From positions 3,534,001-3,598,000 of the forward strand of contig NZ_JAUSWX010000001.1 of assembly GCF_030815405.1 (NCBI RefSeq): 64,000 bases of DNA. Direction: 5' to 3'. Position 1 is the first letter of the stretch. Each line of letters opens with the position of its first letter. Below, in pieces: positions 12,480 through 41,618 of the stretch. The notes under the pieces were generated by a model that searched no databases, was not told where the DNA came from, and worked only from the letters and a program-made list of their open reading frames with translations. This DNA is from Agromyces albus. Lineage in GTDB: Bacteria; Actinomycetota; Actinomycetes; Actinomycetales; Microbacteriaceae. The translations under genes and the position numbers were made by a program.

Positions 12480-13648
12480 CCCGCATCGTGCAGATCGTCC
12501 CCTACATGGGCCCGGGTACCGGCGTAGCCGGAGTGGCATTCCACCTCGATCAGCAGTTCCGCGCGCTCGGCGTCGACGTCGAGCGCTTCACGTTCATCGA
12601 CGCCCAAACGCGACGAACGCGACGAACGCCGAAGAACTCCGTCCTCAAGCGCATCCTCGGCGGCTGGCACATGGTCTGGTTCAGCACGATCGGCACGTTG
12701 CGCGTTCGCCGGTTCCTCGCCGACCGGCCGGATGCGATGACGATCACGCACAACAACGTGATGGTCGGCGACGTCTACGTCAACCACGGCCTCCTTCTCG
12801 CCTCCATGCGGGCGCGGGGACGGTCGTTCTGGGGCATCTACCGCAATCCCATCCATGTCTTCATCTACCTCCGCGACCTCATCAGGTATCGAGGGCGCAC
12901 GCACCGCGCGGTGGTATGCCTCTCCGAAGCGGATGCCACGGACCTGCGCACCACGTACGGCCCCGTCCACCCGAGGATCGAAGTCATCCCGAATGGCGTC
13001 GACCTCGACCAGTTCCGACCTCCCACGCCCGACGAACGCAACGCCGCGCGAGCCGAACTGAAGCTCGGAACCGAGGAGCGCGTGGCCGTCTTCGTCGGGC
13101 ACGAGTTCTCGCGCAAGGGGCTCTCGTTCGCGATCCAGGGGCTGTCTCACGCGCCGAGCGTGCTGTTGCTCATCATCGGCGGCAACGACGACATCATCGC
13201 CGAGGCCTACGCCGAGGCGAAGGAGCTCGGTGTCAGCGAGCGCGTCCTGTTCCTCGGTCCACGACGGCCGCCGGTGTCATTCCTGCACGCCTCCGACTTC
13301 TTCGTGCTGCCGAGCGCCTACGAGGCGAATGCGCTCGTCGTGCTCGAGGCGCTCGCCGCCGGGCTGCCGGTGATCGCCACGCCCGTCGGGTTCGCGCCCG
13401 AGGTGGTCGTCGACGGAGTGAACGGATTCCTCGTCGAGCGCGACGGGCGCGCGGTGGGCGAACGGATGGAGCAGCTCGCGAACCTCGACGAGACCGAGCT
13501 CGCCGCTTGGGGTCGCCGCGCCCGCGAGTCCGTCGAGCCCTATGGATGGCGCAGGATCGCCGAGCGGTATCTCGAACTCGCCGAGGAGCTGCAGGCCGAG
13601 CGCGAGCACGGCGGTTCGGGGCATCCGGTTGCAAGGACCGGCGGATGA
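12476..13648 (+). CDS. GT4 family glycosyltransferase
   Basis: 390-residue GT-B glycosyltransferase. The N-terminal acceptor half includes GPGTGVAGVAFHLDQ and DVYVNHGLL; the donor half includes IPNGVDLDQFRPP, FVGHEFSRKGL and the E-x7-E region YEANALVVLEALAAGLPV. It is a close paralogue of the first half of the next protein, which shares nearly all these blocks. Starts at the ATG overlapping the previous stop; its own stop overlaps the next start (ATGA). Confidence 0.9.
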   Translation: MTRIVQIVPYMGPGTGVAGVAFHLDQQFRALGVDVERFTFIDAQTRRTRRTPKNSVLKRILGGWHMVWFSTIGTLRVRRFLADRPDAMTITHNNVMVGDVYVNHGLLLASMRARGRSFWGIYRNPIHVFIYLRDLIRYRGRTHRAVVCLSEADATDLRTTYGPVHPRIEVIPNGVDLDQFRPPTPDERNAARAELKLGTEERVAVFVGHEFSRKGLSFAIQGLSHAPSVLLLIIGGNDDIIAEAYAEAKELGVSERVLFLGPRRPPVSFLHASDFFVLPSAYEANALVVLEALAAGLPVIATPVGFAPEVVVDGVNGFLVERDGRAVGERMEQLANLDETELAAWGRRARESVEPYGWRRIAERYLELAEELQAEREHGGSGHPVARTGG

Positions 13649-15849
13649 CGCACATCGTGCAGATCGCCCCGGCGATCGCTCCCGGCAGCGGCGTCGCGGG
13701 TGTGGCGTACGCGCTCGAGCGCGAGTTCGTCGCCGCGGGAGCGACCGTCGAGCGGTTCACGGCCGCTGACGCCGGCAGGCCACCGGGAAGGCCGCGCGTG
13801 CGCACACCCGTTGCCACCCATCTCACTCGTGCACGCAACGTCATCTGGTTCAGCACCGTGGGCACGCGGCGAGCCCGACAGTTCCTCGCCGCGCGTCCAG
13901 ATGCCGTCTCGATCACGCACAACGACGTCATGGCAGGCGACGTCTACGTGAACCACGGCCTCCTGCAGGCCGCCATGCGCGCGCGAGGCGAATACATCTG
14001 GCGCATGGTGCGCAACCCGGTGCACCTGTTCACCGCGCTTCGCGACCGCATCCGGTATCGCGGTCGCACACACCGAGCCGTCGTCGCCCTCACGACGACC
14101 GAGGCCGAACTGCTGCGCTCTACCTACGGCCGCGTGCACGCGCCGATCCACGTCATTCCCAACGGCGTCGACATCGAGCGGTTCCGGCCGCCGGATGCCG
14201 CGGAGCGCGTGCAGGCTCGGTCGAAGCTCGGAATCGACGACGAGCGCACGATCGCGCTGTTCATCGGCCACGAGTTCGAACGCAAGGGCCTCCCCATCGC
14301 CATCGAATCCCTACGGACGGCACCCGACGTGCTGCTCCTCGTGGTCGGCGGCTCACCCGACATGATCCGCAGGGCGCGGGCACAGGCACGGCAGGCAGGC
14401 GTCGGTGAACGCGTGCACTTCGCAGGCTCCCAGCGCGACCCCATCCCCTTCATCTGGGCCTCCGATGTGCTCGTGTTGCCGAGCGCCTATGAGGCGAATG
14501 CATTGGTCGTGCTCGAGGCGCTCGCGTGCGGTCTGCCGGTGGTATCGACGCGCGTGGGCTTTGCGCCCGACATCCTCGTCGACGGAGACAACGGTTTCAT
14601 CGTGGAACGCAACGCCGCGTCGGTGGGCACGCGCCTGGCCGAGCTCGCGTCACAGCCGCTCGACGAGTGGCGCCACCGCACACGGCGCACGGCGGAGCAG
14701 TACGCCTGGCCCCAGATCGCGCGTCGGTATCTCGCGCTCATCGAGTCGTTGCGGCGCGACAGCGCCGAAGGCGAGGACAGTGACGTCAGCCTCGGCGACG
14801 GGAACAAGATGACGCGGCCGCTTCGCATTCTGCACGCGATCCGCTCCGATGGCTTCTCGGGCGTCGAGCAGTTCGTGCTGCGCCTCGCGCTCGCACAGGC
14901 TGCCGACGGCCACCGCGTCACCGTGATCGGCGGCGCCACCGACCGGATGCGGCCTCCCCTCGCCGAGGCCGGCATCGAGCACGTCCCGGCGGCACGCACG
15001 ATCGAGGTCACTCGCGCCGTGCGAGAGCTCCGGGGCGGGTTCGACGTCGTGAACACCCACATGACCGCCGCCGAGGTCGGTATGGCAGTGGCGCTCTGGT
15101 TCACTCGCCGGTCGCGCCGCCCGGCCGTCGTCGCAACGCGGCATTTCGCAAAGGCGCGGGGACGAGTCGGCCCAGTGCCGATCGGCCCCTTCGTGCGACG
15201 CCGCATCGACGGGCAGATCTCGATCAGCCGCGCCGTTGCCGACTCCGCCGACGGCCCCAGCATTGTCGTCCACTCGGGAATCGAGAGCCGCCCGCTGCGC
15301 GACGTCACTCTGCGCGAACGCGTCGTCCTCATGGCGCAGCGGCTCCAGCCCGAGAAACGCACGGACGTGGGGATTCGCGCGTTCGCAGCATCCGGTCTCG
15401 CCGACGACGGCTGGACCCTCGAGATCGCCGGCATCGGACCCGGGCGCGAGGCGCTGGAGTCGCTGGCCGAAGAGCTGGGCATCTCGTCGGCGGTCGAGTT
15501 CCTCGGGTATCGCGGCGATCTGCCGCAGGTCATGGATCGCGCCGGCATTCTGATCGCCCCGTGCCCGGTCGAGGGGCTTGGGCTGACCCTCCTGGAAGCG
15601 ATGGCCGGCGGTCTCCCGGTCGTCGCCGCCAGTGCGGCCGGACATCTCGACGTGCTCGCAGGGCTCGATCCGCGCGCGATGTTTCCGCCGGGCGATGCCG
15701 ACGCGGCCGCCCGCAACCTGCGCTCGCTCGCCGAAGACGACACCGGCCGCAACGCACTGTCGCTCGCGGTGCGCAAGCGCCAACAGGGCGAGTTCTCCCT
15801 GCGCGCGCAGGCTGCCGCAACCGAGGCCGTCTACCTGAGTGCGCGATGA
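13645..15849 (+). CDS. Double-domain GT4-GT4 glycosyltransferase
   Basis: 734 residues, one open frame holding two complete GT4 proteins. Residues 1-385 repeat the architecture of the upstream gene (VNHGLL, IPNGVDIERFRPP, FIGHEFERKGL, YEANALVVLEALACGLPV). From about residue 389 a second module begins with MTRPLRILHAIRSDGFSGVEQ and ends with VEGLGLTLLEAMAGGLPVVA. The methionine at the junction (near 14809) and the short polar linker suggest two genes joined by loss of a stop codon. An internal restart there is possible but no clear ribosome site is seen. Overlaps both neighbours. Confidence 0.87.
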   Translation: MTHIVQIAPAIAPGSGVAGVAYALEREFVAAGATVERFTAADAGRPPGRPRVRTPVATHLTRARNVIWFSTVGTRRARQFLAARPDAVSITHNDVMAGDVYVNHGLLQAAMRARGEYIWRMVRNPVHLFTALRDRIRYRGRTHRAVVALTTTEAELLRSTYGRVHAPIHVIPNGVDIERFRPPDAAERVQARSKLGIDDERTIALFIGHEFERKGLPIAIESLRTAPDVLLLVVGGSPDMIRRARAQARQAGVGERVHFAGSQRDPIPFIWASDVLVLPSAYEANALVVLEALACGLPVVSTRVGFAPDILVDGDNGFIVERNAASVGTRLAELASQPLDEWRHRTRRTAEQYAWPQIARRYLALIESLRRDSAEGEDSDVSLGDGNKMTRPLRILHAIRSDGFSGVEQFVLRLALAQAADGHRVTVIGGATDRMRPPLAEAGIEHVPAARTIEVTRAVRELRGGFDVVNTHMTAAEVGMAVALWFTRRSRRPAVVATRHFAKARGRVGPVPIGPFVRRRIDGQISISRAVADSADGPSIVVHSGIESRPLRDVTLRERVVLMAQRLQPEKRTDVGIRAFAASGLADDGWTLEIAGIGPGREALESLAEELGISSAVEFLGYRGDLPQVMDRAGILIAPCPVEGLGLTLLEAMAGGLPVVAASAAGHLDVLAGLDPRAMFPPGDADAAARNLRSLAEDDTGRNALSLAVRKRQQGEFSLRAQAAATEAVYLSAR

Positions 15850-18976: not shown

Positions 18977-20128
18977 TCACGTGCGGACGAGGATCCTTTT
19001 CTCCACCATGCTTTGCACGGCGTCGGAAATGACCACGGCGGCGTCAATGCCGGAAGGGGGGTCAGGAAGCTCTCGCAACGCGATCTCTTGGAACTCCGCT
19101 TCGGTGAGGCCATCGGCAGCAAGCCACAGGGTCGGGCCGACGCCGGCGAGGACGACCGCACTACCCGACACCAACACGATCAGCGAGTCATCGACAATTA
19201 GAGCATCGATATACGTCGCCCGCCAGAACGCGCCGGGTCGCTCGGCCAGTGAAGGATCAGACCGCCTCTCTGCAGCTCCCGAGAAGCAGTCGCACTCGCG
19301 TTCGGACATCCTCGCGACATCCGTGAGCACTGGCGCATCGTCGTCGATCTCCCGGAGCACGCCATCGATGAGCGGGGGCAGCGACGCTGCCTCGGAATAT
19401 ACGACTCGGCGCACTCCGCCGGTCGAGAGTATCGCCTCGAGGAGGGTCCGGAGCGGGCGCTCGAGCGCCGACAGGTAACTCGTCTGCGGAATGAGTTCGG
19501 ACAGCGCCTCGATGATCGGCACCGATTCCACGAACGGCTGCTCAATGTCCGGCCGCCGGTCGAGCAGCACGATCGCCGCGAGGCGCAGGCCGTCGGCTGG
19601 CGCAGCACGGAGGCCGAGTGTCGAAGCAGGCTCCGTGACCTTCACCCCAGGCCACGACCCGATCGAAAGCGGCTTGGGATACGTTATGACCGAACCGTCG
19701 GCGCGCACCGCCAGCGTTTCGTCGGTCACGTAGCCGTAGATGCGGCCGAGCGTCTGGGAGGCAGTGGTCTTCCCACGGCCTGATGGCCCGACGAAGCCGA
19801 TCACGCGCCCGTCATCGAGGGCCACGGCGCTTGCGTGGAGCATGAGCGCCTCGCCCCGAAGCCCACCGATGGCCCCGATCGTGACGTCCGAGCTGATTCG
19901 CTGGGCGAGCGCCTCGGCCGAGTCCGCGCGCACCGAGTACGAACCGTGGGATGAATCTGAGTGGTCGCCCAGGCCGGCGCGGACGACGAGGTCGGGCTCG
20001 CCGGCTCCGTCGTGGGTGAGGTCGACCCAGTGCGCCTTGATCGACTCCTGGTCGGCGGCACTCAACGAGTCATCAAGCTCGATGCGCACCCTGCTCTCCA
20101 GTGCACGCACGTCGAAGGCTGTTGGCAT
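18977..20128 (-). CDS. HPr-kinase-like P-loop protein
   Basis: 383 residues. The central part resembles the HprK/P C-terminal kinase fold: ALMLHASAVALDDGRVIGF then Walker A GPSGRGKTT at 114-122. This is the form found in HprK-related kinases of peptide- and glycan-modification loci, not the PTS regulator, since no HPr or full HprK N-domain is visible. Start chosen at MPTAFDV (20128), because the longer frame runs into the divergent gene's leader. In lasso peptide clusters a relative phosphorylates the peptide C-terminus. Here the PqqD and nucleotidyltransferase partners lie 12 kb away in the same locus. Substrate unknown. Confidence 0.75.
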   Translation of the reverse strand: MPTAFDVRALESRVRIELDDSLSAADQESIKAHWVDLTHDGAGEPDLVVRAGLGDHSDSSHGSYSVRADSAEALAQRISSDVTIGAIGGLRGEALMLHASAVALDDGRVIGFVGPSGRGKTTASQTLGRIYGYVTDETLAVRADGSVITYPKPLSIGSWPGVKVTEPASTLGLRAAPADGLRLAAIVLLDRRPDIEQPFVESVPIIEALSELIPQTSYLSALERPLRTLLEAILSTGGVRRVVYSEAASLPPLIDGVLREIDDDAPVLTDVARMSERECDCFSGAAERRSDPSLAERPGAFWRATYIDALIVDDSLIVLVSGSAVVLAGVGPTLWLAADGLTEAEFQEIALRELPDPPSGIDAAVVISDAVQSMVEKRILVRT

Positions 20129-23459: not shown

Positions 23460-24542
23460 TCACGTGCGGCGCCCACTCCGGCGTGACGGCGCCGCCGGAG
23501 TCTCGGCCACGAGGTCGTCGGAGTCGGAGTCGGCGTCGCGCGACGCCACGGCGGGGGTGGGTTCCTCGGCGGGGAGCGCCTCCCCATCCGCCGATGTCGT
23601 GTAGTCGCGACGGTACTCATACGAGTAGGCCGCCGCGTCGGCTCCGCGCAGCGGCGCCCGGTTCAGCACGATGCCGAGCGCCCGACCGCGCGCTTTGTGC
23701 AAGGTGTCGAGGGCCTTGTCGAGCAGGTCGAAGGTCGTCTTCCGGAGGGTGATCACAACCAGCGCGCCGTCGGCCTGATGGGTCAGCACTGCGCCATCCG
23801 TTACAGGCAGGAGCGGCGGGGCGTCGATGATCACGGTCGCGTGCTTGGTCAGTTCAGCGATCAGCGCGTGCATGCGCTCCGAGCCGAGCACCTCGCTCGG
23901 ATTCGGGGGAACACTGCCTGCCGCGAGCACCAGGAGGTTGCTCGCCTTCGGCGTGTGCTGGAGAACCTCGACGAGAGTTGCCCGGCCCGCGAGTACGTCG
24001 CTGAGCCCGGCGCCGCCGGGCAGCCCCATCGTCTTCGCGACCATCGACCTGCGCAGGTCGCCATCGACAAGCACCACAGGGGACCCACCCGCCGCGAGCG
24101 TGAGCGCGAGGTTGCACGCGATCGTCGACTTGCCGTCGCCAGGAAGCGGACTGGTGACCACGATCGTCTTGGGCGGGTGGTCGACGTCCATGAACTGGAG
24201 GTTGGTGCGCAGCGCACGGAGTGCCTCGGAAACCGCGAAGGTGCCGTTCTTGCCGGTGGACTGGGTCGAAGGTTCGATCAGCCTGGTCTCGTCGTCGAGG
24301 CCCGGCACGATCGGAATCGTGCCGACGACGGCGACGCCGGTGCGCTGCTCGACATCGTCTGCCGCCCGGATGCGCCGATCGGACACCGTGCGGATCATCG
24401 CGAACGCGATGCCGAAGCCGAGACCGAGAATGCCGCCGACCGACACCGCGGTCTGCACGTCGGGAAAGCTCGGTGATGAGGGCAGCGAGGCCACATCGCC
24501 GGGGAAGAACTGTGACGGGGGCGGAGCCCGGGCTGCCGTCAC
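23460..24542 (-). CDS. Tyrosine autokinase, kinase-half open frame
   Basis: The downstream 360-residue frame of the split co-polymerase gene. It retains the second membrane segment, all nucleotide-binding motifs (LPGDGKST, VLVDGDLR, IIDAPP) and the tyrosine-rich tail. Gram-positive systems often have the kinase (CapB/CpsD type) separate from its membrane activator, so the fragment could keep some activity if translated. No good ribosome site precedes its first methionine. Confidence 0.55.
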   Translation of the reverse strand: MTAARAPPPSQFFPGDVASLPSSPSFPDVQTAVSVGGILGLGFGIAFAMIRTVSDRRIRAADDVEQRTGVAVVGTIPIVPGLDDETRLIEPSTQSTGKNGTFAVSEALRALRTNLQFMDVDHPPKTIVVTSPLPGDGKSTIACNLALTLAAGGSPVVLVDGDLRRSMVAKTMGLPGGAGLSDVLAGRATLVEVLQHTPKASNLLVLAAGSVPPNPSEVLGSERMHALIAELTKHATVIIDAPPLLPVTDGAVLTHQADGALVVITLRKTTFDLLDKALDTLHKARGRALGIVLNRAPLRGADAAAYSYEYRRDYTTSADGEALPAEEPTPAVASRDADSDSDDLVAETPAAPSRRSGRRT

Positions 24543-24975
24543 CGTCCAGGCCGTCGATCTCGACCTTCATCGCATCGATCCACGCCTCTGCGAGCGCTCG
24601 GGCAGACTCCGGCGACGGGCCCTGTGCGCTGACCTTGATGAACGTCGTGTCGACGGGGTTCGACACCTCGATCCGCTGCACGAGGGCCTCGGGCGTGGTG
24701 CTCAGACCGAGTTCTTCGATCGCGTGCTCGGCGACCGTGCGCCATCCCGCGATCTCGAGGTAGGTGGCCACTTTGGACCTGGCCAGCGAGTCGCCGAGTG
24801 TCGAGGTGCCGAGATCCTCCACACCGGTCGACGAAACGTAGCCGCTCGCACCCGCGACGTAGACGGGGGTCTGGAGCAGCGTCCAGCCGTATCCCGCGCC
24901 GGCGCCGACGATCGTCATCAGCAGGATGGCGATCCAGTGCCTGCGCAGTCCGCGCAGGTAGTCGCGGAGCTCCAT
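23460..24975 (-). pseudogene. Wzz/BY-kinase tyrosine autokinase split by a frameshift
   Basis: Together the two frames make a normal ~500-residue polysaccharide co-polymerase/tyrosine autokinase. The first frame, from ATG 24975 (MELRDYLRGLRRHW), gives the Wzz domain with one membrane segment and ends in DGDGSPGSAP. The second frame supplies the rest from SQFFPGDVASLP: a second membrane segment, Walker A (LPGDGKST), Walker A' (VVLVDGDLR), and a C-terminal tyrosine cluster YSYEYRRDY. Removing one base from the G5 run at 24517-24521 joins them perfectly. This could be a sequencing error, a recent null mutation or a slippage switch. Only the joined form would regulate chain length. Confidence 0.82.
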
Positions 24976-25076: not shown

Positions 25077-26462
25077 TCATCGACGCCAGCCGACGCCGGC
25101 ACTGAATGGCACGCGCCGGCCGAGGGGCACTCGGGTGACGAGCTCGTCAGGCCCCTCTTTCGTGCTTCGCTCATGATCCATCGCGCCCAGACAGATGCCC
25201 GCGACCACGAATGGAACCGAGACCTGGACGGCAACCCAGAACAGGTCGAACTGCGACTGCACGAAGCGGCTGAGCAGCACCGCGACAGCCAGGGTGCCGA
25301 ACCGCGGGTCGACATGCCAGAGCGCGACGAGCACGCCGATCCACATCACGAGGAACCCGATGAGCCCGACGACCCCCGCGGAGGCGAGAACCTCCAATTC
25401 TGCCTGCGGCGGCTGGTATGGCAGTTCGCCGGGGTTGTACCAGTAGCGGAGTCCGTGCCCGAAGATCGGCGACTCTCGCCAGAAGTGGTACACCTCGCGG
25501 AGCCACTCGACTCGCTGGAACACCGAATTGTGCCGGTTCTGTGATTCGATCTGGTCGACCACCATCGAGATCACGAGCCAGGCCGCGGGGATCAGCAGAA
25601 GGAGTACCAGTCGGGAGCGTCCGGTGGTACTCCGGCGCAGCACCGCGACCACGATGGCGGCCGCCAGGCCGATGAGTGCCTGACGGGACTGTGCCACCAC
25701 GATTCCCGCGGCCATCAGCCCGAACGCGAACCGTGCCCAGCCCTTCGTCCATCCCACCCAGTCGGGGTTGAGGTACGCGATGATCGCTCCGAACGCGAGC
25801 ACCGTTCCGATGAAATTCTTGTGCATCGAGAACGGCCAGCTCGGTGTCGCCGGACCGAAGTTTCCGACCGCATACTGGAATGCGGCCTCCACGACCGTGA
25901 GCATCGCGAATGCGCACGTGGTGAACACGATGAGGGAGAGAGCGAGCCTCGCGTGCCCCGCAGCGCCGAGCGCCCACCCGACGATGAGCGCGCCCGAAAC
26001 GAGTATCCACGCGTGGAACCACTCGATCGTGTTGAGCGCGTATGGGTTCACGACGACGGTGAACAGCGTGGCGAACTGGTATACGAGATTGATCAGCAGC
26101 AGTTGACGCAACGGTTTGCTGTAGGGCCGATGGCCGAGCAATAGTGCCGTGCCGAAGGCAGCCGCGAGCGCGGCATCCGATACTGAGAGGTCGCCCCCGC
26201 CGAGGCCGATGCGCTGGGAGATCAGCAGGCCCGGCATCGCGAACAACGCGATGGCGAGAGGCGTCGATGTGGTGAGAACGGCCGCGATGACCAACGCGCC
26301 GACGACCACGGCGAACGTGGCGCCGCCCACAACCCCGCGCTCGAGGATGAAATACGTGGCCGTGACCGCACCGAAAGCGGCGAGCACCCAGCGCCACGTG
26401 TTCGCCCACAAGTCGGCGATCCGCTCACGCCAGAGTTCTCGGCGCGTGCTCGTCGAAGTCAT
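25077..26462 (-). CDS. O-antigen ligase/polymerase-like membrane protein
   Basis: 461 residues with about ten to twelve hydrophobic segments and a large polar loop around residues 300-345 that contains RVEWLREVYHFWRESPIFGHGLRYW. The GHG within a long extracytoplasmic loop is typical of Wzy/WaaL (O-antigen_lig) proteins. Expected to polymerise or attach lipid-linked repeat units on the outer membrane face. ATG at 26462 with AAGGACC upstream. The longer in-frame extension before it has no ribosome site and no membrane segment. Confidence 0.85.
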   Translation of the reverse strand: MTSTSTRRELWRERIADLWANTWRWVLAAFGAVTATYFILERGVVGGATFAVVVGALVIAAVLTTSTPLAIALFAMPGLLISQRIGLGGGDLSVSDAALAAAFGTALLLGHRPYSKPLRQLLLINLVYQFATLFTVVVNPYALNTIEWFHAWILVSGALIVGWALGAAGHARLALSLIVFTTCAFAMLTVVEAAFQYAVGNFGPATPSWPFSMHKNFIGTVLAFGAIIAYLNPDWVGWTKGWARFAFGLMAAGIVVAQSRQALIGLAAAIVVAVLRRSTTGRSRLVLLLLIPAAWLVISMVVDQIESQNRHNSVFQRVEWLREVYHFWRESPIFGHGLRYWYNPGELPYQPPQAELEVLASAGVVGLIGFLVMWIGVLVALWHVDPRFGTLAVAVLLSRFVQSQFDLFWVAVQVSVPFVVAGICLGAMDHERSTKEGPDELVTRVPLGRRVPFSAGVGWRR

Positions 26463-26568
26463 GCCCGGTCCTTCGGTGTGATTCGGTCCAGTATCGCACC
26501 CCACATGCGGTGCGCCATTAGTCTGACTGAATGGGCATCCCATCCGTCCAGCGGCGCGGTCGACCTCG

Positions 26569-27708
26569 ATGATCGACCGCAGGGTGGCGATCGTCACGAT
26601 CAACGACGACACGAACTACGGCAACCGGCTGCAGAACTTCGCGCTCCAGGAGGTCGTGCGCTCGCTCGGGTGGGAGCCGGAGACCCTCCGGAATCGGCCA
26701 CCGGCGTGGGAGCGCGCACTCCTCGCTCCGCGGATCCTTGACGATCTCCGTCACGACGCCGTTGGCGTCGCGGGCAGGGCCTGGACTCGAACCAGAGGGC
26801 GGTTGGGCCGCGGATCTCCGCAGTCGCCGGCCTTCCTGGAGCAACGACGATCTGCCATCGGAGAGTTCGCCCGCGCACACCTCGCTTCTTCGCCGCATCG
26901 CTACTCAGAGATGCCCTCAGATTACTGGGCGGACCGCTATTCCTGCGCCATCGTCGGATCGGATCAGGTGTGGAACCCGACCTACCGACGGGCGCAGGGC
27001 ATCGACTTCTTGGACTTCGTCGGCGAGTCGCAGCGGATCGCATATGCCGCGAGCTTCGGCGTCGAGCACGTGCAGGGGTTCCTCCGCTCCCGGTACCGCA
27101 CGTGGCTGCAAGGGATCCCGAACATGTCGGTTCGGGAATCCAACGGCCGCCGAATCGTCGCAGAGCTGACCGGCCGAGACGTCCCCGTCGTCGTGGATCC
27201 CACGATGCTGGTGGGCCGGCCCGTCTGGGATGATCTCATCGCGAGGCAGCCACCCATCACCAGCGGACCCTACGCGGTGCGCTTCCTCCTCGGCCGACCG
27301 ACGCCCGAGCAGGACGCCTGGCTGAGACTCCATGCCGATGACGCCGATCTCGCAATCGTCGACCTGCATGCTCTTGACCAGGAGGCGTTCGCCGACGTCG
27401 GCCCCGCGGGCTTCGTCGCTGCGATCTCACGTGCCAGCGTCGTGTACACGGACTCATTCCACGCGGGCATCTTCGCACTGCTGTTCCACCGCCCGATCGT
27501 GCTTCGCTCCCGCTTCGCGCGGGATGCGCGCTGGGAGGAGCTCATCTCGCAGCACGGCCTGGCAACCCAGCCGACGGGCGTGGAAGGGCTGCAGAAGCTC
27601 ACAGATACCGATTGGAAGGCCGTCGAGGCACGACGCGAGAAACTCCGCGCATCGTCGCTGATCTTCTTGCGTGGCGCGCTCGACTCCTCAGCCGGCGAAG
27701 CGGGATAA
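26569..27708 (+). CDS. Polysaccharide pyruvyl transferase family protein
   Basis: 379 residues, the second PF04230-type protein here. Seen: TINDDTNYGNRLQNFALQE at the N-terminus, CAIVGSDQVWNP, VVVDPTMLV and YTDSFHAGIFALLFHRPIV. The substitution of S-F-H-A-G for the usual S-x-H places it in the branch often annotated for EPS loci. Divergent from the polymerase gene; convergent with, and overlapping by 21 bases, the next glycosyltransferase. Confidence 0.85.
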   Translation: MIDRRVAIVTINDDTNYGNRLQNFALQEVVRSLGWEPETLRNRPPAWERALLAPRILDDLRHDAVGVAGRAWTRTRGRLGRGSPQSPAFLEQRRSAIGEFARAHLASSPHRYSEMPSDYWADRYSCAIVGSDQVWNPTYRRAQGIDFLDFVGESQRIAYAASFGVEHVQGFLRSRYRTWLQGIPNMSVRESNGRRIVAELTGRDVPVVVDPTMLVGRPVWDDLIARQPPITSGPYAVRFLLGRPTPEQDAWLRLHADDADLAIVDLHALDQEAFADVGPAGFVAAISRASVVYTDSFHAGIFALLFHRPIVLRSRFARDARWEELISQHGLATQPTGVEGLQKLTDTDWKAVEARREKLRASSLIFLRGALDSSAGEAG

Positions 27709-31079: not shown

Positions 31080-32888
31080 TCAGTCGAGTTCGCCGAGCTC
31101 GACCAAGCGGGCGAAGTCGGGACTCTGCGCCCGAACTTCCTCGAAGGTGCCCTCAGCCTCTATCTGGCCGTCCCTGAGGAACACGAGCGTGTCGGCGTGC
31201 CGCACGGTCGACAGGCGGTGCGCCACGATCACGATCGTCAGCGTGCCCTGCAGCGTGCCGAGCGTCTTGGCGATCTCGTGCTCGGTGACGTTGTCGAGCG
31301 CTGATGTCGCCTCGTCGAGCACGAGCACGCGGGGCCGCCGGTAGAGCGCGCGCGCGAGTCCGATGCGCTGCCGCTGCCCGCCCGAGAGCCGAACACCGCG
31401 CTCGCCGACGACCGTGTCAAGCCCATCGGGCAGTTCGGCCACGAGGCCGTCGAGCTGCGACATCCGGATGACCTCGCGGACCCGCACCATGTCGACGTCG
31501 TCGCGCGCGACGCCGAACACGATGTTCCTGATGAGCGTGTCGTTGAGCAGGAATACGTCCTGCGGCACGACGCCGAGCCCCGCGTACCACCCGGCGAGGT
31601 CGTCGGCGATGGGCCGGCCACCGACCTCGACGGAGCCCTCCGTGGGCTGGAGCAGGCCGAGGACGATGTCGAGCAGAGTGCTCTTGCCGGCGCCGCTCGA
31701 GCCTACGAACGCGGTCGTGCGGTTTTCGGCGATACCGAGCGAGATCCCGTGCAGAACATATTCATCGGAGTCGGGGAATCGGAAGCTCATGTCGCGCAGC
31801 GTGATGCCGCCCGAGAACCCCTCCGAGTTGCGTGGCAGTTCGTCGTGCAGACCGCCGGCGGCGAGTTCGTCGACGGCCGCCGAGACGATCCCCAGACCCG
31901 CCCGCCCGGTCCGCACGGTGGCGAGATTGGCGGCGACGCGGTTCATCGCCGGCAGCGCGCGGAGGGACGCTGCGGCGAATACGCCCAGCACCGTCAGCGC
32001 CGCGGCGGGAGTGCTTGTGGTGAACAGGATCGCCGAGATGCCCATGATTGCGACGACGAATCCGATCTCGAGCAGGTACCGCGGCGCGTCTGCCAGGATG
32101 CCCATGACGCGCGAGGCCCTGGCACGCTTCAACCTTGCCGCACGGAACCCGTCGATGAATGCGTTCGCACTCGATGTCAGGCGGGCCTCTCGGAAGCCGT
32201 CCAGTCCGGGCAGGAGGAACTGCCAAGCCTCGAGCCCGGCCGCGGCGAGCTCCTCGCCGATGCGGTACTGCCGGCGACGCAGCAGCATCTGCACGCCGAA
32301 TACCAGCACTCCGAAGAGCACGACTGCGAAGAGCGTGACCGCGGGCGACGTGAGCGCGAGCACGCAGGTGATCGCGAGGAGTACGATCGCGTCCGAGGCG
32401 GTGCTCACAATCCCGAGCAGGACGCTCGCGGACTGGACGGTCGCATCGTTGATGTTGCGGTACATCTCGCTGATGCGGCGCAACCGGTGGTCGGCGTACG
32501 GCGCGAGCGCGTACCGGCGCGCGAGCTCGGCGGACGACAGCGCGGAGATCCGGGTCGTCCGGCCGAGCAACCACCACCGGAATGCGATCGCGCCGACGCT
32601 CTTGAGGATGAACACGAGCGTAATGAACGCGGCCACGACGGGGATCAGCGTGGATAGGTCGGTTGTCCCGAGCTGCTCCGAGAGCCATTCGACGAACCAG
32701 CTCTCGGTGTCGCCGGTGAGCAGCTGCGTGAGCGGCACCATCGCAGCTACGCCGATCGTGTCGAGCGCCGCGAGCACGAGCGACGCGGCGACCGTCCCGA
32801 TGAGCCACCGCTTCGGGTCAGCGCCGGCCATGTCGAGCATCATGCGCAGCTGTGAGGTCAGACTCCGGCCGCGTCCGCTTCGTGCCAT
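31080..32888 (-). CDS. ABC exporter, fused membrane and ATPase domains
   Basis: 602 residues: about six membrane segments in residues 30-310 and an ATPase domain from ~345 with GSSGAGKST (Walker A), RLSGGQRQRIGLARAL (signature), VLVLDEATSALD (Walker B) and the H-loop in VIVAHRLSTVR. It resembles PglK/MsbA-type flippases of lipid-linked oligosaccharides, so it may take the place of a Wzx flippase, which is absent. It could equally be the exporter of a modified peptide, given the PqqD-like gene 105 bp upstream. Start at MARSGRGR after CGGAGGGA. Confidence 0.88.
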   Translation of the reverse strand: MARSGRGRSLTSQLRMMLDMAGADPKRWLIGTVAASLVLAALDTIGVAAMVPLTQLLTGDTESWFVEWLSEQLGTTDLSTLIPVVAAFITLVFILKSVGAIAFRWWLLGRTTRISALSSAELARRYALAPYADHRLRRISEMYRNINDATVQSASVLLGIVSTASDAIVLLAITCVLALTSPAVTLFAVVLFGVLVFGVQMLLRRRQYRIGEELAAAGLEAWQFLLPGLDGFREARLTSSANAFIDGFRAARLKRARASRVMGILADAPRYLLEIGFVVAIMGISAILFTTSTPAAALTVLGVFAAASLRALPAMNRVAANLATVRTGRAGLGIVSAAVDELAAGGLHDELPRNSEGFSGGITLRDMSFRFPDSDEYVLHGISLGIAENRTTAFVGSSGAGKSTLLDIVLGLLQPTEGSVEVGGRPIADDLAGWYAGLGVVPQDVFLLNDTLIRNIVFGVARDDVDMVRVREVIRMSQLDGLVAELPDGLDTVVGERGVRLSGGQRQRIGLARALYRRPRVLVLDEATSALDNVTEHEIAKTLGTLQGTLTIVIVAHRLSTVRHADTLVFLRDGQIEAEGTFEEVRAQSPDFARLVELGELD

Positions 32889-32992
32889 CTGTTCCCTCCG
32901 CACCTCGCCCTCGATCTCGGGAGGGCGGGCCTCACGGCATCATAGCCGCGCGAATGCACAGCTCGTGGCGTGGGGGGAGCGCGGTCTCTGCG

Positions 32993-33247
32993 CTACTCCA
33001 GCAGCCCGCGCGCCACGAGGTCGGCCACGAAGTCCTCGACGTCGGCGCGGATCGCGTCGGGCGCGGCATCCGTCGCCTCGGCCACGCGATCGGCGGTCGA
33101 CTCGCGGTCGCCCCCGCAGGCCTCGCTCCAGATCAGCCCGGCGATTCCGTCGAGCACGACGATCGGGCCGTCGGGCAGGCGCGCCGCGTAGACGGTGCCG
33201 TCGTCCTCGACGATCCCGACGCCGCCCGCCTGCCGCAGACGGGTCAT
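32993..33247 (-). CDS. PqqD-like peptide-chaperone family protein
   Basis: 84 residues with the PqqD fold pattern: GGVGIVEDDGTVYAARLPDG, VVLDGIAGLIWSE and a C-terminal helix ending DLVARGLLE. PqqD domains (RRE) bind RiPP leader peptides, but stand-alone copies also occur in glycan loci. The ATG overlaps the stop of the nucleotidyltransferase gene (ATGA), so the two are co-translated, with the exporter gene following. The in-frame extension upstream of 33247 is the shadow of that gene. Confidence 0.78.
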   Translation of the reverse strand: MTRLRQAGGVGIVEDDGTVYAARLPDGPIVVLDGIAGLIWSEACGGDRESTADRVAEATDAAPDAIRADVEDFVADLVARGLLE

Positions 33248-34113
33248 CGTCGCGCTCCCGTCTGACGCAGGCCGAGCCATACCTCCCGGAGGGCACGGGC
33301 CGGGCGTCGGAAGAACTCACTGACGACCTCGGAGCGAGTCGGCGGCCGCCCGAGTCGGTGCGCGAGGTGGTCGACGTTCACGAACAGCGCGCGGACCCCG
33401 ACGCGTATTGCTGTCCCGAGGCTCGGGGCAGCGCGCAGGCGTGCCCACCACTCGGCCGAGCGGGCCCCGCCCTCGGAGACGATCTTCCATAGCCGGTAGT
33501 CCCGCTCGCCACGGTGCTCTTCAAGGCCGCCGGTAGCTGCGGCGAAGGCGACATGGGCGCCGAGCTCCGAGACGAGCGACTGCATCTCCGCGCGGCGCTC
33601 CTCGGAGGCTTCGTGCCAGACCACCTGAACATCGGGCTTGGTACGCATCGTCGAGCGCGCCGCATTGAGCACGAGCAACACGCCCTGCGCGGGCACGCTC
33701 GGAACCTGGCATCCGATGCCGGCGATCTCGATCTCGTGGCGGCCGGTCCAGAACACGTCGAACGCGCGCTCGGGCTCGAGCCGGATGCCCGGGAAGAAGC
33801 GGTGGATGTCGATGTAGCCCCACGCGTGGTGGAGGTAGGTCTGCGCGTGGCCGAACGGCGAGCCGTAATCGAACGTGCTGTAGAGGTGCCATCCGTGCCG
33901 CCGCATCGCCCGATCGAGCGTGGCGATGTGCGCCGGCCGCACCAGTACGTCGACGTCGCTGCCCATGTAGCCGCCGGGCCGCAACGATGGTTCGACAGCA
34001 GCCCCCTTGATGTGGAGTAGTTCGACGCCGATTCGATCGGCGAGATGCTGCACAGCCGCATGTCCGAACCGCAGGCGCACGGAAAGGGGCACGCTTACCT
34101 GGGATTCGCTCAC
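33244..34113 (-). CDS. Nucleotidyltransferase family protein (NTP_transf_5 type)
   Basis: 289 residues. Motifs typical of the NTP_transf_5 family are present: LLHIKGAAVEP, GSDVDVLVRPAHI (the G-S-D-x-D metal-binding pattern) and YIDIHRFFPG. Such proteins accompany lasso-peptide kinases and PqqD proteins, and also capsule loci; their reaction is poorly defined. GTG at 34113, with GAGGTGG upstream inside a decayed glycosyltransferase. The same first 17 bases recur at 35264-35280, beside the intact glycosyltransferase. Confidence 0.8.
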   Translation of the reverse strand: MSESQVSVPLSVRLRFGHAAVQHLADRIGVELLHIKGAAVEPSLRPGGYMGSDVDVLVRPAHIATLDRAMRRHGWHLYSTFDYGSPFGHAQTYLHHAWGYIDIHRFFPGIRLEPERAFDVFWTGRHEIEIAGIGCQVPSVPAQGVLLVLNAARSTMRTKPDVQVVWHEASEERRAEMQSLVSELGAHVAFAAATGGLEEHRGERDYRLWKIVSEGGARSAEWWARLRAAPSLGTAIRVGVRALFVNVDHLAHRLGRPPTRSEVVSEFFRRPARALREVWLGLRQTGARR

Positions 34114-34166
34114 GCCCGCTGCACCACCTCTTCGATCACCCTACCGAGTCGGCGAGGTGCGCGTCG
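34097..34166. repeat. Left copy of the duplication flanking an inserted oxidoreductase
   Basis: The first 17 bases, ACCTGGGATTCGCTCAC (34097-34113), are identical to 35264-35280. The following ~50 bases are about three-quarters identical to 35281-35331. Both copies hold the nucleotidyltransferase start followed by a glycosyltransferase 3' end. Confidence 0.75.
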
Positions 34167-34231
34167 CGGCGGACGCGCTCCGCGCCGCCCACCTTCACGA
34201 GGTGATCGTGGGCGAGGACGACTTCGGGCAC
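34110..34231 (-). pseudogene. Decayed glycosyltransferase remnant
   Basis: The head, from GTG 34231, reads VPEVVLAHDHLVKVGGAERV. This matches the intact gene at 35277-36344 (MPEIILAHDYLTQIGGAERV). About eleven codons later, in the next frame, it reads RLGRVIEEVVQRA and stops, matching the intact C-terminus RLAGVMKEVMHRV. Roughly 310 codons are deleted between the two. It still sits directly before the nucleotidyltransferase start. Confidence 0.75.
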
Positions 34232-34304
34232 GGCTTCCCCTCTCGCGGTGTCGCGTCTGCGGCATCTTACGCCCGGGAGTGACGCCTCCTGACATAGTTG
34301 ACGC

Positions 34305-35264
34305 ATGCACCGGTCCGAATGGGACGTCATCATCGTGGGCGGCGGTAGCGCAGGCCTCAGCGCCGCGCTGATGCTCGGCCGCTCGCGCCGCCGCGTACTC
34401 GTCATCGATGGCGGCGAGCCGCGCAATCGCTTCTCCGCGCACATGCACGGCGTGCTGGGCCATGACCACTCCCCGCCGCTCGACCTGCTCGCCGCCGGGC
34501 GCGCCGAGCTCACGCGCTACGACGACGTCGTCATCGAGTCAGGCACGGTCGTCTCAGCGACCCCGCTCGACGTCGATGACATCGGCTTCGACGTCGTGCT
34601 CGAGACCGGCGAACGCCATACGGCACGACGAATGCTCGTTGCCACGGGCCTGCGAGACGAGCTCCCCGACATCCCCGGCCTCACCGAGCAGTGGGGCCGC
34701 AATGCCGCGCTGTGCCCGTACTGCGACGGATGGGAGGTGCGCGACCGCCGCATCGCCGTCATCGCCACGGACGCGGCGAACACCCACCAGGCACAGCTGA
34801 TGCGGCAGCTCTCGCCACACGTCACGTTCTACTCCCAAGGAGTGAGCCTCCCAGATGCGGCACGCGTCGGGCTTGAGGCACGCGGCATCGCGATCGAGTC
34901 GCGCACGGCCGTGGAGGTCGTCGGCGACGAGAGGGGCGGCCTCCGCGGCATCCGCCTCGACGACGGAACCGAGCACGACGCCGACTCGATCTTCGTCGCC
35001 CCGCGCCCCGTGCCGAACGACCGCCTGCTGAGCGATCTCCGCGCGCGCTCCATTCGCCAGAACGGCGTCAACTGGGTGCTCGTCGACGCGTCGGGTCGCA
35101 CCAACGTGCGCGGGCTCTGGGCTGCGGGCAACATCGCGACCGCTCAGTCGTCGGTGCCCGTCGCGATGGCGGCCGGGAACCTCGCGGGCAGCGACATCAA
35201 CGGGGACCTCGTCGAGGAGGACGTTCGCGAGGCGGTCGTCGCGAGGCAACGGGACAACGGCTGA
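34305..35264 (+). CDS. TrxR-like NAD(P)/FAD-dependent oxidoreductase
   Basis: 319 residues: FAD site VIIVGGGSAGLSAALML near residue 8, a redox-active CPYC pair in ALCPYCDGWEVRD, and the C-terminal FAD motif GLWAAGNIATAQ. The NADP Rossmann signature near residue 150 (IAVIATDAAN) lacks the usual GxGxxG, so it may be a thioredoxin-reductase-like enzyme with altered cofactor use. It is the only + strand gene among minus-strand genes here. Its stop lies at the edge of a 17-bp direct repeat, which suggests insertion. Confidence 0.87.
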   Translation: MHRSEWDVIIVGGGSAGLSAALMLGRSRRRVLVIDGGEPRNRFSAHMHGVLGHDHSPPLDLLAAGRAELTRYDDVVIESGTVVSATPLDVDDIGFDVVLETGERHTARRMLVATGLRDELPDIPGLTEQWGRNAALCPYCDGWEVRDRRIAVIATDAANTHQAQLMRQLSPHVTFYSQGVSLPDAARVGLEARGIAIESRTAVEVVGDERGGLRGIRLDDGTEHDADSIFVAPRPVPNDRLLSDLRARSIRQNGVNWVLVDASGRTNVRGLWAAGNIATAQSSVPVAMAAGNLAGSDINGDLVEEDVREAVVARQRDNG

Positions 35265-35331
35265 CCTGGGATTCGCTCACACCCGATGCATCACCTCTTT
35301 CATCACTCCAGCGAGACGAGCGAGGTGCGTG
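35264..35331. repeat. Right copy of the duplication flanking an inserted oxidoreductase
   Basis: Matches 34097-34166: 17 identical bases, then a diverged stretch. It holds the 3' end of the intact glycosyltransferase and the first codons of a nucleotidyltransferase start, which here leads nowhere. Confidence 0.75.
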
Positions 35332-36344
35332 TCACGACTGAATCGATGGGCCCAGGCTCGGCAGGCGCCGGCGTCGAGGTCTCGTGCGCGGAGGATCGCG
35401 GTCGCGAGTGCCTCCGGCGTGGCGGATGCCGCGTGGAAACCGTTGACACCCGGCCGCACGGTCTCGAGGTAGCCGCCCAGGGCGATCGTGGCGGCGGGCG
35501 TACCCTCGAGCGACGCCTCGAGCACCGTGAGGCCGAAGTCCTCCCGGCCCGCCCCGACGACGACGGAGGCGCGCTGGTACACCCAGCACAGCTCGGCATC
35601 CGTCACGCGACCCAGCGCGTAGACGCCCTGCTCGGGTGCGTCGAGCACCTCGGAGCCGGCGCCGACGATGACGATCGGCAGGCCGGCCATCGTCGCGGCA
35701 TCGACCGCGAGCGGCACGTTCTTGTATCCGCGATCCCGCGCCACGATGACCACGAACTCATCGGGCAGGCGCCGCGCCGGTGGCCTGGCCTCGCGAGCGA
35801 CGGGCTCCACCGGCGGGCTCACGACGACCGAGTCGAGGCCGTAGGCCGACCACATCCGATCGCGGGTCACGAGCGAATTCGACAGGATGGCGTCGGCGCG
35901 GCGCATGGCGTCGAGATCGCCCCGTCGCAACAGCGGCGTGCTCGCCTTGAGCCCGGCCCGGCGCAGGGGACTCAGCCGCAGCCGGTAGTCCTCCGCCGCG
36001 TAGAGCCAACGGGCAGCACTGTGCACGTAGACCACGTGCGGGATCTTGAATTCGAATCGATGCGCCCAGCCGCTGCTGGAGACGAGCGCGACGTCGCCGC
36101 CCGACACCACCGTGTGCTCCGCGATCGAGGGGAGCGTGGGCAGCATCCGCTCCACCTGGTTCGCGAGCGACCGAGGGATGCTCGAGCGCACCTCCATGTG
36201 CCGGAAGTCGTCGAACGTGTCCTCCGGCGAGTACGCGAGCGTGACGACGGTATGCGCGCTCAGTGCTTTCGCCCACTCGGCGACGACGCGTTCGGCGCCA
36301 CCGATCTGGGTAAGGTAGTCGTGGGCGAGGATGATCTCGGGCAC
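35277..36344 (-). CDS. GT4 family glycosyltransferase
   Basis: 355-residue GT-B protein of the WbaZ-like kind: HDYLTQIGGAERVVAEW at the N-terminus, HVVYVHSAARWLYAAEDY, and the donor-side GREDFGLTVLEASLEGTPA. GTG start at 36344 has only a weak ribosome site; a longer frame would enter the tandem-repeat array and is not credible. A decayed copy lies at 34110-34231. Confidence 0.87.
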   Translation of the reverse strand: MPEIILAHDYLTQIGGAERVVAEWAKALSAHTVVTLAYSPEDTFDDFRHMEVRSSIPRSLANQVERMLPTLPSIAEHTVVSGGDVALVSSSGWAHRFEFKIPHVVYVHSAARWLYAAEDYRLRLSPLRRAGLKASTPLLRRGDLDAMRRADAILSNSLVTRDRMWSAYGLDSVVVSPPVEPVAREARPPARRLPDEFVVIVARDRGYKNVPLAVDAATMAGLPIVIVGAGSEVLDAPEQGVYALGRVTDAELCWVYQRASVVVGAGREDFGLTVLEASLEGTPAATIALGGYLETVRPGVNGFHAASATPEALATAILRARDLDAGACRAWAHRFSRDTHLARLAGVMKEVMHRV

Positions 36345-36406
36345 GGGAATCCCAATCCCGCGAAACCTTGAGACGACACTGCAGATGGGTCGGGTAACAG
36401 GGGTAG

Positions 36407-36539
36407 CTCGGGTACGTCGAGCTGGCTCGGGTACGTCGAGCTGGCTCGGGTACGTCGAGCTGGCTCGGGTACGTCGAGCTGGCTCGGGTACGTCGAGCTG
36501 GCTCGGGTACGTCGAGCTGGCTCGGGTACGTCGAGCTGA
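36407..36539. repeat. Seven-copy 19-bp tandem repeat
   Basis: Unit CTCGGGTACGTCGAGCTGG, seven copies with no spacer and one base change in the last copy. Each unit with its flank holds AGCTCG...CGAGCT, so the array could fold as a row of small hairpins. It lies just upstream of the start of the minus-strand glycosyltransferase gene. Nineteen is not a multiple of three and no coding signal is seen. It is not CRISPR because there are no spacers. Confidence 0.9.
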
Positions 36540-36631
36540 CTCGGCACCGGAGACCGGGAAATCGGGTAAATGGGTGATGGGGCGGTTGAACCGTGGCTCA
36601 GGCGAACCGTGGCTCGGGCGACCCGGGTTCG

Positions 36632-36695
36632 GTGAATCACGGTCCGGGTGAACCGTGGTTCGGGTGAATCACGGTCCGGGTGAACCGTGGTTCGG
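36632..36695. repeat. 32-bp direct repeat, two copies
   Basis: Unit starts GTGAATCACGGTCCGGGTG and recurs with period 32 at 36632 and 36664. Similar GAACCGTGG(C/T)TC words flank it from 36587, and looser TCGGGTA words continue to about 36740. Confidence 0.8.
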
Positions 36696-36932
36696 GTGAA
36701 CCGGGTAATCGGGTAAATCGGGTATTCGGGTGTTTCGGGTTTGCAGTGCGATCGGGTATCGCGTTTGGCGGCATACTACGCCGCGATGGTGGCGCCGCCT
36801 ATGGGGTGTTTTGGCGTCGTGGCCCGGAATCTCGCGGATGTCGGGGAAGCTGTCCCCCGAATTGGGTGGGCTGCGAAGCCCGTCATCCGCTCCGTCCGCG
36901 ACCGAGACGTCACAGTGGGGCCGACGGAGCGG
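36696..36932. other. Intergenic stretch without a supported gene
   Basis: TCGGGTA-rich sequence up to about 36740, then about 190 bp in which no open frame shows family-like sequence or a ribosome site. Probably spacer or decayed DNA between the repeats and the PucR-like remnant. Confidence 0.5.
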
Positions 36933-40888: not shown

Positions 40889-41494
40889 TCAGTGTCCAGG
40901 TGAGCCGGCCGCCGTCACGCCGACATCCGAGCGATGGAAGTTCTGGAACGAGCGCGACGCCGTGGGCCCGCGCTGCCCCTGGTAGCGGCTCGCGTACTCG
41001 GCCGAGCCGTACGGCCGCTCACTCGGTGACGAGAGGCGGAAGAAGCACATCTGGCCGATCTTCATGCCGGGCCAGAGCTTGATGGGCAGGGTCGCGACGT
41101 TCGATAGCTCGAGCGTGACGTGCCCCGTGAAGCCGGGGTCGATGAACCCCGCCGTCGAGTGGGTGAGGAGGCCGAGCCGGCCGAGCGAGCTCTTGCCCTC
41201 GAGGCGAGCCGCGACGTCGTCGGGCAGGGTGACCGCCTCGAACGTCGAGGCGAGCACGAACTCCCCCGGGTGCAGGATGAACGCCTCGTCGGGCCGCACC
41301 TCGATGAGGTGGGTGAGCTCGGGCTGGTCTTCGGCCGGGTCGATGAACGGGTACTTGTGATTGTCGAACAACCGGAAGTAGCGGTCGAGGCGCACGTCGA
41401 TCGATGACGGCTGGATCATCGCCGGTTCATAGGGCGCGAGACCGATGCGGCCCTGGTCGAGTTCGGCCCTGATGTCGCGATCCGAGAGAAGCAC
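40889..41494 (-). CDS. dcd: dCTP deaminase
   Basis: 201-residue trimeric pyrimidine-pool enzyme. Seen: [16 protein letters not shown] start, [17 protein letters not shown], the catalytic [16 protein letters not shown] stretch (E-x-x-S-S-x-x-R) and [16 protein letters not shown]. Actinobacterial forms may convert dCTP directly to dUMP. GTG at 41494; the longer frame shows no family match. Divergent from an exported hydrolase, with shared upstream operator-like repeats. Confidence 0.94.
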
Positions 41495-41529
41495 GGTGCC
41501 AGCGTAGCAACGGCGTGCCGCATCGATCG

Positions 41530-41572
41530 GCGGATGCGTCATCCGTCGAGCCGCGGATGCGTCATCCGTCGA
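41530..41572. promoter_or_regulatory. Two identical 20-bp operator-like repeats
   Basis: GCGGATGCGTCATCCGTCGA at 41530 and again at 41553 (23-bp period). Each contains the inverted repeat GGATG-CGT-CATCC. They lie between the divergent dcd and glycoamylase genes and look like a tandem binding site. Confidence 0.55.
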
Positions 41573-41618
41573 CCTCGCAGCAATACCTTTCATGTGGCAG
41601 GTTTTAATGCAACTCTGT

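Follow-up and report, generated by a model that had tools for sequence, protein, structure and literature searches.

A candidate leader-guided modification system for Tat-exported proteins in a glycan locus of Agromyces albus and related Actinomycetota

A kinase, PqqD and nucleotidyltransferase gene set with an adjoining precursor

In a 64,000-nucleotide stretch of the 4.27 Mb genome of Agromyces albus, which we analysed as a whole and call the window, four genes on the minus strand encode an HprK-like kinase, a PqqD-like protein, a nucleotidyltransferase-fold protein of the NTP_transf_5 family (NTP5) and, 102 bases after the kinase gene, a protein with a twin-arginine translocation (Tat) signal (Table 1). 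They are surrounded, along with a fused ABC transporter gene, by genes for glycosyltransferases, pyruvyl-transferase-like proteins, Wzz, a Wzc-like kinase and a Wzy_C protein. The gene calls are rough, and some of the 29 window frames that were scanned with Pfam are not genes. An earlier note on this DNA had named the NTP_transf_5, PqqD, ABC and HprK-like genes; all four are real, and the first three have Pfam matches. The same note had seen no convincing precursor, a statement that falls with the Tat-signal protein adjoining the HprK gene.

Table 1. Genes of the candidate modification system and of the surrounding glycan locus in the window
Feature	Coordinates	Strand	Basis
Tat-leader precursor, 180 aa	18332..18874	-	sequence; leader-family alignments; co-occurrence with HprK/NTP5/PqqD
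HprK-like kinase, 383 aa, C-terminal PqqD-like domain	18977..20128	-	family alignments; TIGR04352 below cut-off; LppB match
Discrete PqqD-like RiPP recognition element (RRE), 84 aa	32993..33247	-	PF05402; PDB profile matches to B1 proteins
NTP_transf_5 nucleotidyltransferase-fold protein (NTP5), 289 aa	33244..34113	-	PF14907; invariant alignment columns
MsbA-like ABC transporter, fused permease/ATPase	31080..32903	-	NCBIfam MsbA as top-scoring model, at 252 bits (under the cut-off)
GT4 glycosyltransferase	35277..36344	-	Pfam; before or near NTP5 in relatives
Wzz	24539-24975	-	Pfam Wzz 1.9e-6
Wzc-like BY-kinase	23460-24542	-	TIGR01007, 150 bits over cut-off
Wzy/O-antigen-ligase-type membrane protein (Wzy_C) of the surrounding glycan locus	25077..26612	-	PF04932 6.7e-13

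The discrete PqqD-like protein matches PF05402 at E-values of 1.1e-9 to 1.3e-9 (38.6 bits, cut-off 23.4), a model that also matches all 35 of its 35 aligned relatives. Searched against the PDB, the family profile retrieves TbiB1 (1.3e-12), PbaB1 (2.5e-9), PqqD (6.5e-8) and LppB (9x8z, 1.5e-6), which are solved leader-binding proteins, and at the level of sequence this suggests that the window protein has the winged-helix leader-binding fold. NTP5 matches PF14907 at an E-value of 1.5e-8 (35 bits, cut-off 31.2), as do 33 of 33 aligned relatives; K36-G37, D53, D55, D102 and H104 are invariant columns of the alignment, and D53, D55, D102 and H104 are residues that we take to be catalytic. A profile search of the PDB with NTP5 gave no close solved relative (best E-value 2.9). 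If PqqD starts at the ATG at 33247, its start overlaps the NTP5 stop by ATGA (33247-33244), which makes the description of the two genes as co-translated a fair one; an alternative start is the upstream ATG at 33280. At three other Agromyces loci, L025 (10724-12812), L026 and L027, the PqqD gene overlaps or abuts a MauE-like gene (CGSC motif) in place of NTP5, and an S26 signal peptidase gene is present at each.

The accessory genes are the same as those of paeninodin clusters and TbiB1, the best PDB match of the PqqD profile, is a lasso-peptide protein, so that the locus could be read as a degenerate or cryptic lasso-peptide cluster from which the cyclase and the B2 protease have been lost. 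We regard this as extremely improbable, given that the gene set has a conserved precursor family of its own in many genera (described below) and that no Asn-synthase or Transglut_core3 match was found among the proteins scanned from the window and its relatives, a scan that left most of the relatives' proteins outside and included no cyclase-directed search.

The HprK-like protein carries a second PqqD-like domain

The HprK-like protein has a Walker A motif (GPSGRGKTT), and its family alignments show an invariant D136-E137 pair (YVTDET) and an invariant H98; D136, E137 and H98 are presumably catalytic. TIGR04352 (HprK_rel_A) matches all 41 aligned members of the family at E<=0.1, the best at 2e-8, and TIGR04355 matches 19 of the 41, while the window protein itself reaches 14.4 bits with TIGR04352 against a cut-off of 200. 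Judged by these scores, the proteins are sub-threshold relatives of the HprK-related kinases A and B and not members of those families.

The earlier note overlooked that the C-terminal ~90 residues of the kinase-like protein form a PqqD-like domain of their own. Used as a PDB query, this part of the family profile finds LppB (9x8z, 5.4e-5) and TbiB1 (1.4e-3), and the Pfam PqqD model matches 16 of the 41 family members at E<=0.1. A PqqD model picks up this domain in the HprK genes of five Agromyces, and at E<0.05 it does so in 31 of 80 named loci, by which we mean the loci retrieved from named genomes with the HprK alignment, limited to the best 80 of 150 relatives and to fetched stretches of at most ~21 kb. 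One Agromyces (G016; L024, 15146-18182) has a second cassette in which a MauE-like gene, a leader protein and a second HprK-like kinase are adjacent, some 6 kb from NTP5/PqqD.

A family of predicted exported proteins with a shared leader

The precursor begins with a twin-arginine signal (leader RRTVAKAMAWSVPAV...AAS; full leader MSDLEEPKPGVSRRTVAKAMAWSVPAVALAVPTPAYAAS). Within this leader lies WSVPAV, an instance of WxxPxV, a motif reported to be bound by recognition elements (RREs) of ribosomally synthesized and post-translationally modified peptides (RiPPs); a serine follows 14 residues after the proline, and the mature part is ~140 aa long. Relatives of the precursor at other loci share the N-terminus and vary in the remainder. 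The alignment consensus of the leaders (twin arginine, hydrophobic segment, AxA-type cleavage site) has the features of a Tat substrate, as which the family is accordingly predicted. No Pfam or NCBIfam family above cut-off was found for the mature part of the window protein, nor for ten example leader proteins. The window protein has 172 database homologues; among the 120 listed, the names given are hypothetical or Tat pathway signal protein, apart from one 'expansin' and one 'DUF4352'.

We collected 141 distinct leader proteins, of 72-573 aa (median 187). WxxP is present in 140 of them, in 136 as WxxPx[VIL] and in four more as WxxPVM, and one leader lacks the W. A serine stands exactly 14 residues after the proline in 131 of the 136 WxxPx[VIL] leaders, serine making up 8.6% of the 30 residues further on. 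Of the 129 leaders with RR ahead of the motif in the chosen start, 127 have the twin arginine nine residues upstream of the W. The mature parts are diverse: clustering of 139 of them at E<=1e-3 gave 53 groups, 34 of which have a single member. In many leader proteins (at L061, L062, L093, L130 and others) a CKxPG motif occurs soon after the predicted cleavage site, together with a Cys near the C-terminus.

We considered whether ordinary Tat signals could account for the leader matches. Of 248 genomes from the order, 202 give no match at E<=1e-3 to a 34-column leader model, and these leader-negative genomes would be expected to have ordinary Tat substrates.

Linkage and co-occurrence of the genes

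A set of 60 genomes comprised 37 of one genus, the window genome among them, and 23 from elsewhere in the order. Fourteen of the 60 have NTP5, and these same 14 have PqqD and an HprK homologue at E<=1.7e-32; one additional genome (G058) has an HprK match at 3.4e-12, and 18 further genomes have weak HprK matches alone, at 7.7e-6 or worse. That three genes should share the same 14 of 60 genomes argues that their linkage is not due to chance. A leader model built from ten sequences matches exactly these 14 genomes (E<=1e-3) and none of the 46 that are NTP5-negative. By tblastn of the fetched stretches, Wzy, Wzc-like, GT4, NTP5, PqqD and HprK genes are present in all 13 Agromyces loci. A leader lies within the fetched locus in 9 of the 13 Agromyces, and in a further one of the 13 (G014) it is on a short separate contig; in one genome (G011, L020) NTP5, PqqD, HprK and leader form a contiguous run.

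The named loci come from Agromyces, Rathayibacter, Pseudoclavibacter, Microbacterium, Arthrobacter and kin, Herbiconiux, Subtercola, Demequina, Flexivirga and Propionibacteriaceae, among others. Of the 80, 55 hold a leader, 55 hold NTP5 and 52 hold a PqqD gene separate from HprK; the three occur together in 42 loci, while 17 have none. The trio is thus not scattered, and its linkage in relatives upholds the earlier note where it saw in PqqD, HprK and NTP_transf_5 a set that follows the logic of paeninodin-type lasso clusters. The nearest leader is within 3 kb of HprK in 45 of the 55 leader-bearing loci, with up to seven leaders at one HprK locus. Gene order varies: Arthrobacter (L158) has leader-PqqD-HprK-Wzz/Wzc-NTP5, Microbacterium (L161) has HprK-PqqD facing S26-leader-leader-NTP5, and in Demequina (L170) NTP5-PqqD-Wzz/Wzc-HprK runs directly into six tandem leaders (11228-15312).

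Leaders also occur away from the locus. The ten-sequence model finds 13, 11, 10 and 7 copies in four Agromyces (G016, G023, G006 and G001, respectively), and Microbacteriaceae bacterium VKM Ac-2854 (G284, L150) has 37 leader matches, none in the fetched stretch around HprK. These copies bear on the possibility that the exopolysaccharide is the target, HprK and NTP5 producing or adding a phospho-substituent on it while the ABC protein flips a lipid-linked glycan and the leader proteins are mere passengers. Such polysaccharide tailoring would suit the surroundings, a glycan locus that is rich in glycosyltransferase genes, also has Wzz/Wzc and Wzy_C, and in which no Wzx-type flippase was matched among the 29 Pfam-scanned frames (not all of them genes); yet leaders remote from the island still track HprK and NTP5 (7-13 copies in the four Agromyces, up to 37 in HprK genomes), and two PqqD domains call for a peptide partner. 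We hold tailoring of the polysaccharide to be quite unlikely.

Across 248 genomes of the order (thresholds E<=1e-12 for HprK, E<=1e-3 for the leader and E<=1e-6 for NTP5), HprK was found in 46, the leader in 46 and NTP5 in 41; 40 genomes have all three and 196 none. A leader is present in 40 of the 41 NTP5-positive genomes and in 6 of the 207 NTP5-negative ones (Fisher's exact test, 1.4e-38, not corrected for phylogeny). Of these 40, 28 have NTP5 and HprK no more than 20 kb apart, and at least 25 have a leader that close to one or the other. The genome sets are samples, and part of the first-look candidates were scored, so that the phylum-level counts are lower bounds: the leader (E<=1e-5) is present in at least 3 of 396 genomes, all of this order, and HprK (E<=1e-12) in at least 11. 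The matches in the eight HprK genomes outside the class are at 2.9e-18 or weaker, and no listed one reaches the C-terminal domain.

A Wzz-Wzc homologue, sought with a reference protein 85% and 89% identical to the window Wzc and Wzz, stands beside HprK in 67 of the 80 named loci, more often than a leader does (55 of 80). This, the Tat-like character of the leader and the existence of HprK-positive genomes without leaders are what one would expect if the PqqD domains were no more than export chaperones on the twin-arginine leader, holding the protein back or timing its export, with HprK switching the chaperone or Wzz/Wzc and the exported protein left unmodified. Chaperones of the TorD type do bind twin-arginine leaders. 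The fixed serine at +14 (131 of 136) and the pairing of NTP5 with the leader (40 of 41 genomes) are left unexplained by this alternative, and in the closest system studied so far the kinase modifies the leader-bearing peptide (PMC13381572). We therefore consider a chaperone role unlikely.

A proposed pathway for marking exported proteins

We think it probable, if by no means assured, that the genes constitute a leader-guided modification system for exported proteins, related in logic to the linear polyphosphorylated peptide (LPP) and paeninodin RiPPs. From the observed gene content, linkage, co-occurrence, leader motif and spacing, and from the conserved motifs of the kinase and the nucleotidyltransferase, we infer the following chemistry. 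The substrates would be secreted proteins with an N-terminus that serves both as RiPP leader and as twin-arginine signal peptide. While the protein is still in the cytoplasm, WxxPx[VIL] within the signal may be gripped by a PqqD domain, either the discrete one or that fused to HprK, and the HprK-like kinase would phosphorylate the serine at +14 from the proline, beside the predicted cleavage site. NTP5 might then attach a sugar (or a nucleotide) to the serine phosphate, as reported for PsmN. The marked protein would be exported, most likely through Tat, and cut by a signal peptidase, probably beside the serine; outside the cell it could meet, and perhaps become linked to, the extracellular polysaccharide made by the same locus. 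Tat suits such a scheme because it exports proteins already finished in the cytoplasm.

The earlier note had proposed as target either a RiPP-like peptide or a glycan or its carrier. Its RiPP-type logic stands; the Tat-signal precursor beside HprK makes whole exported proteins likelier targets than a small peptide or a glycan carrier. A wider hypothesis, which we find doubtful, is that of a general N-terminal marking and sorting pathway for the surface proteins of actinobacteria, in which an RRE-guided phosphoglycosyl anchor is placed on the serine after the Tat-type signal, the glycosyltransferases and Wzy/Wzz/Wzc proteins of the locus build or attach the polysaccharide, and exported proteins are tied covalently to the capsule through their N-termini.

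Several findings weigh against our proposal. The window HprK-like protein has no match at curated cut-offs in the Pfam and NCBIfam scans, so that its identity rests on sub-threshold matches. In Pfam its family is matched at E<=0.1 chiefly by general models of P-loop proteins (ABC_tran for 28 of the 41 members, PEPCK for 14), and in the PDB search with the family profile the P-loops of ABC proteins lead, with no HprK structure among the best 60 of 370 matches. The leader models include the W, P and Ser columns, and the motif counts are therefore partly selected for; we note that the ten founding leaders, chosen by similarity, position and RR/K/P pattern and not by the serine, have it at +14 in nine cases and at +15 in the tenth. 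The WxxP motif lies in the hydrophobic core of a signal peptide that has to engage the membrane as well. Searches with two S26 signal peptidases as queries found no homologue in the window, and such homologues occur in 3 of the 13 Agromyces loci and 23 of the 80 named loci.

Linkage and co-occurrence are likewise imperfect. Three of the 13 Agromyces (G001, G006 and G023) have no leader in the fetched locus and carry their leaders elsewhere in the genome. Of 18 genomes with a leaderless HprK locus, some of them represented by short stretches, 14 have leaders elsewhere (2-37 each), and in four no leader was found anywhere; at L184, L196, L204 and L206, from leaderless HprK genomes, a search for [WYF]xxP at gene starts gave no convincing precursor. 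Within the order, six genomes have the leader alone of the three, five have HprK alone, one (G058) has weak HprK and NTP5 matches and no leader, and in 12 of the 40 genomes with all three NTP5 is not within 20 kb of HprK. Finally, the survey of PqqD covered the 60 genomes and the named loci.

RREs are best known from small peptides. If the modification system that we propose is real, a single export signal would be an RRE-read leader common to as many as dozens of secreted proteins per genome, and RiPP-type chemistry would mark part of the surface proteome before export. Why the kinases of LPP and paeninodin systems sit in capsule loci would become testable in a second phylum, and a likely function would be at hand for 'Tat pathway signal' and hypothetical proteins in Agromyces, Arthrobacter, Microbacterium, Rathayibacter and Demequina, with the leader motif as a simple handle for genome mining.

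The ABC transporter and other neighbouring genes

The ABC transporter (ABC_tran, 5.5e-29 in Pfam) could be a peptide or protein exporter or a flippase for lipid-linked glycan. By tblastn its gene is full-length in 12 of the 13 Agromyces loci (not in G029), and it occurs in 8 of the 80 named loci, all of them Agromyces; it goes with the unit within the genus, and the comparison with the lasso-cluster transporter D that had been drawn for it is thus weak outside Agromyces. As a core part of the system the transporter was rejected, as it was not seen at >=450 aligned residues in the fetched stretches of 72 of the 80 named loci, four of these 72 being Agromyces whose stretch may end too soon.

The spacer before NTP5 (34093-34233) is the remnant of a copy of the GT4 gene, with ~69 bases of its start (75% identity) fused to 77 of its end (83%); a thioredoxin-reductase-like gene (34305-35264, plus strand) lies between gene and remnant, and in several relatives the GT4 gene directly overlaps NTP5. 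Upstream of the GT4 gene are two tandem-repeat arrays, 36406-36544 and 36583-36740, one with a 19-base unit (7.3 copies, 99% match) and the other with a 16/32-base unit. The frame at 8357-10294 joins a low-molecular-weight phosphotyrosine phosphatase domain to a GT4 domain, which are two gene calls in most relatives seen. Near the GT4 end of the glycan locus, a protein that we take to be dCTP deaminase (40889-41593) is 86-95% identical across nine Agromyces loci and is also found at L063 of a tenth; its conservation beside the glycan locus suggests that the island has a fixed address.

Comparison with known systems

With paeninodin and pseudomycoidin (PadeK, PsmK, PsmN, B1) the gene set has in common an HprK-like kinase, a nucleotidyltransferase, a PqqD-type B1 protein and an ABC transporter, and the WxxP leader motif recurs in paeninodin-type lasso peptides. 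According to two reviews (PMC9266682, PMC8498205), PsmN adds one or two hexoses to the phospho-Ser of pseudomycoidin, with the caveat that it may nucleotidylate while a host enzyme glycosylates. Here, unlike in those systems, the candidate serine is at the start of the core and not at the C-terminus, and the substrate would be a whole protein; the window precursor, at 180 aa, does not match the short paeninodin-type precursor with its ring-forming core. A lasso cluster proper was rejected on account of the separate precursor family and of the lack of a cyclase or B2 protease among the proteins scanned, which was not a full search.

Among the matches listed from the literature searched, which left out most subscription journals and preprints, we found no description of an actinobacterial Tat-leader version, nor any paper on HPr-rel-A/HprK-related kinases or on NTP_transf_5 (PF14907). 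The RRE-associated DUF2063/DUF2282 precursors (PMC12710340) likewise combine an RRE with an export signal; there a Sec signal is followed by a variable leader devoid of a specific motif, whereas here the motif is within the Tat-type signal.

The closest known system is that of the LPPs, RiPPs found in Bacillota (Popov et al., Nat Commun 2026, PMC13381572). Their description places an RRE, HprK, an NTP transferase, an MsbA-like pump and a signal peptidase of archaeal (SipW-like) type in capsule loci, and states that LppB binds a YxxP motif, that S3 of the LppA core, which lies 15 residues past the YxxP proline, receives multiple phosphates from LppK, that LppS cuts the leader with the help of LppB, and that deletion of lppN brought no change in a heterologous host. 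LPPs and paeninodins are called restricted to Bacillota there, and their roles are given as unknown. Common to the two systems are a discrete RRE, an HprK-like kinase, an NTP transferase and, in Agromyces, an MsbA-like transporter in polysaccharide loci, as well as precursors with a conserved N-terminus, a variable remainder and a [Y/W]xxPx[VLI] motif, the serine being 14 residues from the motif proline here and 15 in LPPs. The LPP leader consensus is YxxPxVLxHQxIxFETxxS, whereas WxxPx[VIL] is embedded here in a twin-arginine signal and the HQ/FET block is absent; LPP precursors measure 35-200 aa and come one to three per cluster, against up to 573 aa and up to 37 per genome here, often unlinked. 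In addition, HprK here has a PqqD-like domain, the ABC gene is optional, and so is the signal-peptidase gene, found in LPP loci and in part of the loci here, the window not being among them. Since neither the LPP leader consensus nor, in the window, a linked peptidase is matched, we do not file the system under LPPs, although it would be LPP-like in its working. What would be new relative to LPPs is the use of a Tat-type signal as leader and of a whole protein as core.

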